A stretch of 25,715 nt of DNA from a virus. The position numbers were made by a program, and so were the translations under genes. Positions 21,687 to 25,715 of this stretch are shown piece after piece. The stretch spans positions 1 to 25,715 of IMG/VR virus record IMGVR_UViG_3300046491_000233. One strand, 5' to 3'. The notes beneath the pieces are model-generated. The model was not told where the DNA came from, ran no database searches, and worked only from the letters and a program-made list of their open reading frames with translations. The first letter of the stretch is position 1. Each line of letters opens with the position of its first letter.

Positions 21687-22259
21687 TTACTCGTCCTGGT
21701 CCTGCAGCAGCTTGCCGACATCGATGCCGGCCAGCGCGGCAGATAGGGCGGATTCGAGCAGGCGCTCCACCTGGTGCGGGTCGTCCAGCGCCGCCAGTTG
21801 GTCCTTCAACCTGGCCGGCACGTTGAGCACCGAATCGCGGATGCCGCGGAACGTCGTGAACGCAATGCGCTTCGCTTCGTCGACCGGGATCAGTTCGCCG
21901 GCCAGCTGCTTGTACTCGAGCTCCTGCTTCAGCGCGCTGAACTTCTCCCGCGCCGCGCGGTGCGTACGGTACTCGCTGGTCGACGAGTCGCCTTCGCCCT
22001 CGGGCTCGCCGAGGTCAGCGTCCCCGCTTTCCCCGCAGCCCGGCGCAGCCGGAGGAACCGCGCGATTTTTTTCAGGCTGGTTGATGCTGACAGGAGGTCG
22101 GAGCACTTCGCTGCTGTTGCGCCAGTCGCGGTCAGCCTGGTCGGAGTCGATCTTCTTGTCGGCGTTGACCTTGATGTAGCCGGCCTCGATCGCCTTCTGC
22201 ACCGCGCGGAGCGTGACCCCGGCGTGGCGCGAGTACGCCCGATAACCCATCAAAGCCAT
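21687..22259 (-). CDS. terS: Terminase small subunit, Nu1-like
   Basis: 190-aa DNA-recognition subunit. The N-terminal GYRAYSRHAGVTLRAVQKAI and GYIKVNADKKID form a winged-helix domain like λ Nu1. The middle is a charged, disordered linker, and the C-terminus (about 105-190) has a long helical region that would bind the large subunit. AAGGG precedes the ATG at 22259. The gene lies just left of a cluster of GTAGTCA repeats, likely its own binding sites. Confidence 0.85.
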   Translation of the reverse strand: MALMGYRAYSRHAGVTLRAVQKAIEAGYIKVNADKKIDSDQADRDWRNSSEVLRPPVSINQPEKNRAVPPAAPGCGESGDADLGEPEGEGDSSTSEYRTHRAAREKFSALKQELEYKQLAGELIPVDEAKRIAFTTFRGIRDSVLNVPARLKDQLAALDDPHQVERLLESALSAALAGIDVGKLLQDQDE

Positions 22260-23618: not shown

Positions 23619-24611
23619 TCAACGAGTTTCTTGAACAAATGCAACAACACCATGTTCAGCCAAGTGCGGCGCCAGACGCGCGATCGCGTTCTCTTCCAGC
23701 ATGCGCACGTGGTTCTTCATCTTCATCGATGCCCGCAGGTAGGTGCTGTAGCTCCCGCCAAACTGCGCGGCCAGATCGCGCGCGCTGATGTCGATTTTCT
23801 TGTGCCTGGCGAACATCCTCCCCAGCATGCAGCAAATCGCCAGCGGCTTAATACGTGGGAAACTCGGAGCGAACCACCGGGCCAGGCCGTCGATGGCAGC
23901 AATGCGCTCGGCCGGGAAAGCGTAGCGCCGGCGCGGCTCGCCCGCATCCGATGCGCGCGGCCCGTTATTGACGAGGCTGCAGGACGACAGCTTCTCGAGT
24001 GCGATTCTCCCAGCCCGCTCGGCGGCCTCGGCCCTCGCCACCTCCCCGCCGGCATCGCGCACAGCGTCGTGCGCGGCGTGGTACTGCTCCTGCGCCGACT
24101 CGAGCACGTCGGGCGGCATGATCCGATGCTGCATCGACAGGTAGTGGCCCCGCGCCGCCTCGAGCTCGACGCGCGCCTGTTCCATTTTCGCCCGGGCTGA
24201 GCGCAGGCTCCTATCTGCGAGCTCGCGCGCGGTGCCCACCTGGAGCGAACCCGGCTCCTCAGCCACGTCCTCGAATTCGATCTCGCCGTACTTGGCCAGC
24301 AGCACCCAGCGCTCCGGGTCCGGCAGTTTGGTTGCCACGGCCTGCTGGATCATCACGCACTGCGCGCGCACCTCGTTCATGTCGAGGCCGCCGAAGTTGA
24401 CCTTGCCCGAAGCCTCGCCGCGCAGCTGGTCGAGCCAGTGGCGCTGCCCCGGGCTCAGGTTGATCGACTCCATCGAACGGATCAGCGCCTTGCGGAACGG
24501 CGCATCCTGCCGGGCCGGCTGCGCCATCACCAGGAAGGCCACGTGTACCGCCTGTCCTGCGTCTTCGAAGATCGGTTCTTCCAACACCCACCGTGCTGCT
24601 ACTCCCATCAT
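23619..24611 (-). CDS. Unassigned phage protein with coiled coil and C-terminal HTH-like region
   Basis: 330 aa, family not recognised. The N-terminal part (about 1-115) is compact with MGVAARWVLEEP and RWVLLAKYGEIEFED. Residues about 125-210 are a long charged coiled coil. The C-terminal part (about 250-325) contains ICCMLGRMFARHKKIDISARDLAAQFGGSYSTYL, which reads as helix-turn-helix with a following basic helix. Location between the replication region and the late module, followed by strong terminators, would suit a late-gene regulator or antiterminator, but this is inference. ATG 24611 is preferred because it overlaps the upstream stop (ATGA) and has AAAGGG ahead; the frame extends to 24722 in the same reading frame without support. 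Confidence 0.7.
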   Translation of the reverse strand: MMGVAARWVLEEPIFEDAGQAVHVAFLVMAQPARQDAPFRKALIRSMESINLSPGQRHWLDQLRGEASGKVNFGGLDMNEVRAQCVMIQQAVATKLPDPERWVLLAKYGEIEFEDVAEEPGSLQVGTARELADRSLRSARAKMEQARVELEAARGHYLSMQHRIMPPDVLESAQEQYHAAHDAVRDAGGEVARAEAAERAGRIALEKLSSCSLVNNGPRASDAGEPRRRYAFPAERIAAIDGLARWFAPSFPRIKPLAICCMLGRMFARHKKIDISARDLAAQFGGSYSTYLRASMKMKNHVRMLEENAIARLAPHLAEHGVVAFVQETR

Positions 24612-24913
24612 TTCATCCCTTTCAGTTTTTGTTCTCGAAGCTGCATGGCTTCGAATTTTGTCGTTTCGTTTCCCTGATCTGGCGTCCCGCCCACCACGTA
24701 CGCCCTTCCCCGCTGGTCCCACTGCACTCGCACCCTTGCCGGGCTTGGTGTACCGACCGTATGCCCGTTCTCCTGGGCGAAAAACACCGGCTCGCCCTTC
24801 ATCGCCTTCCTGAGCTGCCCGTCGATCGACTCCTTTCCGAACGCCGCCCTCATTTCATCGATCCATGCTGCCGTGACCGGCATCTGTTCCCTCAGACTGC
24901 CTTTCGCCACCAT
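24608..24913 (-). CDS. Small hypothetical phage protein
   Basis: 101 aa, family not recognised. The first half is helical (VTAAWIDEMRAAFGKESIDGQLRKAM); the second is β-like and ends in a basic tail (REQKLKGMK). ATG 24913 is preferred over the in-frame GTG at 24916, with GAGG 7-10 bp ahead. It overlaps the next gene's start by 4 bp, so the two are coupled. It is the first gene after the iteron region, so may be controlled from there. Confidence 0.6.
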   Translation of the reverse strand: MVAKGSLREQMPVTAAWIDEMRAAFGKESIDGQLRKAMKGEPVFFAQENGHTVGTPSPARVRVQWDQRGRAYVVGGTPDQGNETTKFEAMQLREQKLKGMK

Positions 24914-24949
24914 CACCCCCGCCTCGTTGTTTTATTTCTTTTCGACAAA

Positions 24950-25218
24950 CCCTCAACACCGTCAACACACCCTCAACACACCTAACCTTTTGTTTTCATT
25001 ATCTTTATTGACAGTATTGAGAGTATTGAGGGTTAAATTGAAATTGAGTTGAATTAAATTCCGCTGCTTCTTCTCTTGGCTTGCCTTGCTCTACCCCTCC
25101 GCGTGCGCGTGGAGCTTGGAAAAACCGTCAATACCCTCAACACCGTCAACATTCCCTTTATTAACAATGAGTTATCCGTGTTGAGGCTTATGTGAATGTT
25201 GAGGGTTGAGTGTCAACA
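24950..25218. repeat. Iteron array: 9-bp CCSTCAAYA repeats in alternating orientation
   Basis: Forward copies at 24950, 24959 and 24970; inverted copies (TATTGASRG) at 25006, 25015 and 25024; forward copies at 25125, 25134 and 25143; inverted at 25179 and 25197; plus degenerate copies at about 25204 and 25211. Each main group is three units, mostly in exact 9-bp tandem. The 18-mer CCCTCAACACCGTCAACA appears twice (24950 and 25134). The middle (24985-25062) is AT-rich. It lies beside, and partly inside the 3' end of, the replication gene. This is the look of a replication origin with initiator iterons, or of a regulator-binding array. Confidence 0.7.
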
Positions 25219-25715
25219 TCGTCCGCATCACCCCGGCGATATGTCCGGAAACCCTTCTCGAAGATCCCGGCCGTCGACTCAGCCCATTCCCGGTACGACT
25301 TGCCCGCCGGCTGGTCGCCAATGAGGAAGACAAAGCGCTGTTTCACCTCGGACTCGAGCTCGTACTTGATCGTGTGCTGCTTCAGCGCCCCGCCGGCGTA
25401 CCGTTCCACTGCTGGGCTGAACAGGGTCTGCGACGTGTACTTGGATTCCCCGGAGCGGCCGCACCAGACCTTGAACACCTCGTACAGCCTGGTCACGCTG
25501 CAGGTCACGAACGGGATCGGCAGCAGCCCGCTGGACCACTCGCGGTAGAAGCGTTCCGGCGGCGCCAGGCTCTTCTCGATCAGCTTGTCCTTCGCCTCGT
25601 TGTAGAGCGGCTTGGTGTGCTCGTTGAAGTCGCCCATGTCCAGCTCGTGCACCAGGTAGTGGTAGAACGCCTCGATGCCGCCGGCCTTGATCTCGTCAGC
25701 CACGCCGACATAGAA
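25188..25715 (-). CDS. Phage replication protein, primase/helicase type (C-terminal part)
   Basis: The reading frame is open to the right edge, so only the last 175 or so residues are visible and the start lies outside. Visible are HTKPLYNEAKDKLIEKSLAPPERFYREW, then FVTCSVTRLYEVFKVWCGRSGESKY and RRGDADDVDTQPSTFT at the end. This resembles the C-terminal part of DUF5906/D5-like phage and plasmid primase-helicases, with a winged-helix-like segment near VTRLYEVFKVWC. The last codons run into the iteron array. The catalytic primase and helicase motifs are outside the window, so the family call is tentative. Confidence 0.6.
   Translation of the reverse strand, partial: FYVGVADEIKAGGIEAFYHYLVHELDMGDFNEHTKPLYNEAKDKLIEKSLAPPERFYREWSSGLLPIPFVTCSVTRLYEVFKVWCGRSGESKYTSQTLFSPAVERYAGGALKQHTIKYELESEVKQRFVFLIGDQPAGKSYREWAESTAGIFEKGFRTYRRGDADDVDTQPSTFT

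Follow-up and report, generated by a model that had tools for sequence, protein, structure and literature searches.

A twelve-site iteron array at the end of a phage primase-helicase gene as a probable replication origin

At the very end of a primase/SF3-helicase gene, the viral contig IMGVR_UViG_3300046491_000233 (hereafter the window, that is, the whole stretch of 25,715 nucleotides analysed here) carries a dense cluster of short repeats that lies at and just beyond the stop codon, raising the question of what such a cluster does and which protein reads it. On the strength of sequence comparison, structural modelling and analogy with characterized replicons, we consider it very probable that the array is a phage replication origin, with iterons bound by the adjacent primase-helicase and a mode of action like that of SaPI, PICI and P4 origins.

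The array comprises twelve 9-bp sites within positions 24950-25218. Eight of them match CCSTCAAYA exactly (24950, 24959, 24970, 25125, 25134 and 25143 on the plus strand and 25024 and 25197 on the minus strand, as read from that motif), three have one mismatch (25006, 25015 and 25179, all minus) and the last, at 25210, has two mismatches and is conserved among relatives. The initial annotation had counted at least eleven repeats, ordered as three forward, three inverted, three forward and two inverted; this order is right, and the scan adds the twelfth site. It had also listed a repeated 18-mer, and a 19-mer (ACCCTCAACACCGTCAACA) does recur at 24949 and 25133. Outside the array, no exact CCSTCAAYA site occurs in the whole 25.7 kb of the contig, which is incomplete at its primase end. 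The best 9-mer is present in eight non-overlapping copies (at most one mismatch) in 290 bp, whereas 300 dinucleotide shuffles gave a mean of 2.4 copies and never more than 4, and other segments of the contig (n = 164) reached 5 copies at most. Overall GC content is 43% in the array versus 64% in the contig.

Read in the direction of the primase gene, and located by the site scan and comparison with relatives, the array opens with iteron A (TGTTGACAC; 25210-25218, minus strand), within the final primase codons, followed by iteron B (TGTTGAGGG; 25197-25205, plus strand), here inside the primase ORF, and iteron C (TGTTGAGGC; 25179-25187, plus strand), which starts right after the primase stop codon. 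An AT-rich spacer of 27 bp (IIa; 25152-25178, 33% GC; 25-27 bp in relatives) leads to iteron triple I (25125-25151, minus strand), with sites I1 (25143), I2 (25134) and I3 (25125) placed head-to-tail in steps of 9 bp. The centre of the array contains a GC-rich alternating purine/pyrimidine element (CTCCGCGTGCGCGTGGAG; 25097-25114), seen in the sequence and in relatives, and a 34-bp AT-rich tract with 26% GC (25033-25066), a candidate unwinding site. The AT-rich centre initially described is therefore real as regards this tract, and incomplete in that the GC-rich element lies there too. Near relatives, and many of the remote phages with GC-rich genomes, likewise have a GC-rich alternating purine/pyrimidine stretch just beyond triple I. 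Triple II (25006-25032, plus strand; II1 at 25024, II2 at 25015, II3 at 25006) is inverted with respect to triple I, and the two inner triples thus point toward one another. A second AT-rich spacer of 27 bp (IIb; 24979-25005, 30% GC) separates it from triple III (24950-24978, minus strand; III1 at 24970, III2 at 24959, III3 at 24950), with spacings of 11 and 9 bp.

A search with the primase C-terminus returned 43 loci in viruses and 6 in bacterial genomes, with Massilia and Paucimonas as the nearest hosts that bear a name. Each of the 24 close relatives examined has the array directly after the primase, in the order A> <B <C, spacer, I>>>, GC-rich alternating element, AT-rich tract, II<<<, spacer, III>>>. 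Spacing was compared in 20 non-redundant relatives, among which nearly every interval is constant to about 1 bp: A-B measures 12-14, B-C 17-19 and C-I1 34-36 bp; triple I is spaced 9/9 and triple II 9/9 (8/9 in L021); II3-III1 is 35-36 bp in 20 of 20; and triple III is spaced 11/9 with four departures (L014, L017, L021 and L022). The centre alone varies freely, from 76 to 101 bp. Conservation of repeat spacing among relatives had been proposed as a check on the initial annotation, and this is its outcome: twelve sites kept, near-fixed spacing and a variable centre. The suggestion that terminal codons of the gene are recruited as a site is likewise borne out, since in most close relatives site A is encoded by the last primase codons, D-V-[E/D]-[G/T]-stop (for instance GAT GTT GAG GGT TAA, that is, DVEG and stop).

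The sequence of the sites differs from phage to phage, with types such as TGTTGAGGG, TGTTGGCRG, TGTGAAYRG and RTTGGGCGG. When the 12 orthologous sites of 24 relatives are aligned, paralogous sites within one array show an identity of 0.714, against 0.627 +/- 0.003 for mixed arrays (1000 permutations). Sites in the same array are thus more alike than sites in mixed arrays, indicating that the whole set changes in concert. For spacers IIa and IIb as a second paired element the signal is weak (p = 0.007), with a single strong case, L003.

The gene that ends in the array (25188-25715, minus strand; phrog_2249 DNA primase match) starts off the contig. Only its C-terminal 175 residues fall in the window, and it is therefore from relatives alone that the helicase part is known: their primases contain DUF5906, a helicase-type domain. 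At their N-terminus these primases are either TOPRIM-like or of the Prim-Pol/PriCT_2 kind, and the array is kept with both. Similar helicase halves carry Prim-Pol/PriCT_2 N-termini in L009, L010, L022 and L023 and TOPRIM-like ones in L003-L008, L011-L019 and L021, which suggests module exchange.

An AF2 model of the 175 C-terminal residues predicts a winged helix, with pLDDT of about 88-96 over residues 51-160. Its structural matches by VIA-align include RFX (1dp7, Z 6.5), the P4 origin-binding domain (1ka8, Z 6.1), Cdc6/Orc1 bound to DNA (2qby, Z 6.1) and NrS-1 (6k9c, Z 4.6). A Z near 6 is moderate and the winged-helix fold widespread; these matches therefore support a DNA-binding role for the predicted C-terminal winged helix and not a specific ancestry. 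Foldseek returned nothing at E <= 0.001, and PDB sequences searched with a profile yielded no significant match.

Iteron type tracks the C-terminal half of the protein more closely than the N-terminus: the correlation with iteron distance is 0.557 for the winged helix, 0.457 for the helicase and 0.394 for the N-terminus. For the winged helix, the partial correlation amounts to 0.368 (p = 0.001) with L021 and L022 included and to 0.131 (p = 0.21) without them, so that the distances do not distinguish winged helix and helicase once these two loci are omitted; nor did sliding-window and partial Mantel tests tell which of the two is the reader. A further winged-helix domain, of the FtsK_gamma type, occupies residues 396-453 of the L003 primase (E = 1.6e-24); such inserts are found in the primase-helicase linker of L003, L008, L011, L015 and L019, at two alignment positions, and are absent in other close relatives. 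We rejected this domain as the site reader, as it is confined to those five loci and unlinked to iteron type.

Remote relatives, at about 25-40% identity, have arrays at the same place built from unrelated repeats (TGTGACGGG, TGTTACAGG, TGTCTAGGG, GGTTACGCG, TGTCGGAAT and others). An array follows the helicase gene in Pseudomonas phages PG1, Turba, SC_9 and KT1, as well as in Moraxella Mcat5 and Mcat7, Halomonas H4907 and Stenotrophomonas S1, the least regular arrays being those of Mcat7 and the L028 group. Across 46 loci, the best 8-mer averages 3.7-5.5 copies in control windows, and the array exceeds every control window of its own locus in 37, among which are the E. coli island EcCICFT073 and most of the remote phages whose repeats differ. 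In the remaining nine (L009, L010, L017, L023 and five others) the array is equalled or surpassed by one control window or more on this 8-mer measure, which is crude. Scanning 2.9 million viral contigs for the pattern of three tandem sites yielded 21 loci, 15 of which (L002 among them) adjoin this helicase; the other six have long 9-bp-type repeat tracts without a helicase match. In L065, L070, L073, L075 and L081, long tracts of 9-bp-type repeats that fit the iteron pattern and lie away from any helicase appear to be collagen-like coding repeats.

The position of the array after the helicase is constant despite changes in repeat sequence, in primase N-terminus or in downstream gene. Given location, constant layout, concerted change and satellite counterparts together, a putative origin bound by its initiator explains the array far better than any rival. 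The putative phage origin initially assigned beside the primase/helicase gene is thereby supported, through conserved sites at near-fixed spacing, the same kind of array at remote helicases and the shared design of EcCICFT073 and the P4 crr.

The same evidence bears on an improbable alternative, in which the array serves as an operator for a phage regulator of the 24.6-24.9 kb genes, and perhaps also of the primase. It lies between genes, on the upstream side of the next one (24608-24916, minus strand; 102 aa), and tandem sites are common in operators. That next gene, of the MAKGxMREQMP type in many relatives, is nonetheless replaced by others in several relatives with the same kind of array (MKEFEARMDNW and MEVM types, among others); a single iteron type is found with different downstream genes; and in remote phages the array remains after the helicase gene. 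What weakens the operator reading is that relatives differ in the downstream gene and yet retain the array at the primase. The gene two places downstream (23619-24722, minus strand) matches phrog_17923, of unknown function (2.2e-50), and genes with similar starts directly follow the array in L011, L014 and L017-L019.

The orientation switches had also been held to allow two large cruciform-like structures, which would fit a stem-loop or cruciform origin of the sort proposed for pRN1, where secondary structure and not site sequence is recognized. There are imperfect inverted arms (21 nt, 81% complementary), and a required stem-loop has been shown downstream of the pRN1 replication gene and one proposed for phage BIP-1 (PMC4234260). 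Hairpin partner sites are, however, no more alike than non-partners (0.659 versus 0.658), and in most relatives the arms cannot align in register, being spaced 11/9 on one side and 9/9 on the other, so that cruciforms are not supported; the SCCmec helicase Cch2, moreover, requires direct and not inverted repeats (PMC7581432). We regard this explanation as very improbable. Equally remote is a pac or partition site for the small terminase or a Par-like protein, since, although a small terminase gene lies 2.7 kb off in the window (21687-22259) and that of Stenotrophomonas phage S1 is the second gene downstream of the primase, it is the helicase gene that the array accompanies, and the array's satellite counterparts are replication sites.

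Returning to the replication origin, we propose that the winged-helix C-terminus of the adjacent primase/SF3-helicase recognizes the 9-bp sites, the presumed reader being this domain and no other portion of the helicase half. The twelve sites, in two opposed halves, would assemble the helicase on either side of the central AT-rich tract, where two hexamers would load; the tract would then be melted, unwound and primed, with initiation at the array. A bolder extension, which we offer as a speculation more likely wrong than right, is that the 2 x 6 layout acts as a template for docking, on which each half receives one hexamer, with one winged helix per 9-bp site, giving a head-to-head double hexamer whose register around the melting tract is fixed. 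This template would have been kept by many phages, and partly by P4 and PICIs, while the 9-bp 'password' was rewritten in concert with its reader, setting the replication compatibility of co-infecting phages and satellites.

The kind of system is known, and what appears to be undescribed is the compact 12-site locus of two opposed halves in these phages; the open-access literature, most subscription papers lying outside its scope, yielded no account of such an origin in this type of phage. The arrays constitute a natural series of initiator/site pairs, with a single layout and many site sequences, useful for the study of winged-helix recognition and for testing replication interference through iterons shared by phages and satellites. 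With their help the origin could also be pinpointed directly in many phage contigs from the environment.

Among known systems, pRN1 and BIP-1 share with the phage a primase, an SF3 helicase and a C-terminal winged helix, with the origin downstream of the gene (shown for pRN1, proposed for BIP-1, PMC4234260; probable in the phage). The pRN1 origin differs in being a long stem-loop without iterons. Bordetella phage BIP-1 has a similar primase-helicase by the account of that paper (PMC4234260), and inspection by eye of the region after its gene revealed no array of the present kind, which counts against the origin reading. In the related SaPI Rep and SCCmec Cch2, the latter with a putative origin, the C-terminal domain is reported to bind iterons downstream of the gene; Cch2 binding is abolished by deleting the direct repeats and not the inverted repeats (PMC7581432). 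The Cch2 iteron differs in being 5 nt long (AAGTG), and the hosts and helicase subfamilies are unlike those of the phage.

In phage P4, the crr lies just beyond the stop codon of alpha, and its first five sites run > < < > > with spacings of 14, 18, 43 and 9 bp. The order is that of the first five sites of the phage array, in which the corresponding spacings are 13, 18-19, 34-36 and 9 bp, the third being off by about 7 bp, and the P4 type 1 iterons (GGTGAACAG/TGTGAACAA) resemble the TGTGAAYRG iteron type of relatives. The two also differ: P4 splits the function between ori1 and, kilobases away, crr, the latter made of two direct 120-bp repeats, whereas in the phage all known sites lie in one 270-bp locus of opposed halves, with further triples following the first five sites. 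TIGR01613, the P4-family helicase profile, matches weakly, below its cut-off, and BLASTP of P4 alpha against the primase of one relative found no significant similarity (E = 0.32), so that the likeness to P4 could be convergent.

The PICIs of Gram-negative bacteria offer a further parallel. In those of E. coli, sets of iterons flank an AT-rich region downstream of pri-rep, and the pri-rep-ori segment of EcCICFT073 supports plasmid replication (PMC6092414). By the definition given in that work, the array resembles a PICI/SaPI-type pri-rep-ori replicon in having four groups of sites around a tract of 26% GC, and, in location, in that it lies directly 3' of the primase-helicase gene, overlapping and following its stop codon in the window and in relatives; the D5/DUF5906-type SF3 helicase of relatives and the predicted C-terminal winged helix of the window add to the likeness. 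The pri-rep of EcCICFT073, with DUF5906 and Pox_D5, is followed by about twelve GGTAGACAG-type sites, so that both systems have about twelve iterons of about 9 bp directly downstream of a fused primase/helicase gene. They differ in site sequence (GGTAGACAG) and site order, and in that EcCICFT073 is a satellite island and the contig probably a phage with its own terminase and late-type genes: a small terminase and numerous long ORFs of late type in the window point to a phage. By analogy, then, the module would work like a PICI replicon, and the element that carries it is not itself filed as a PICI.
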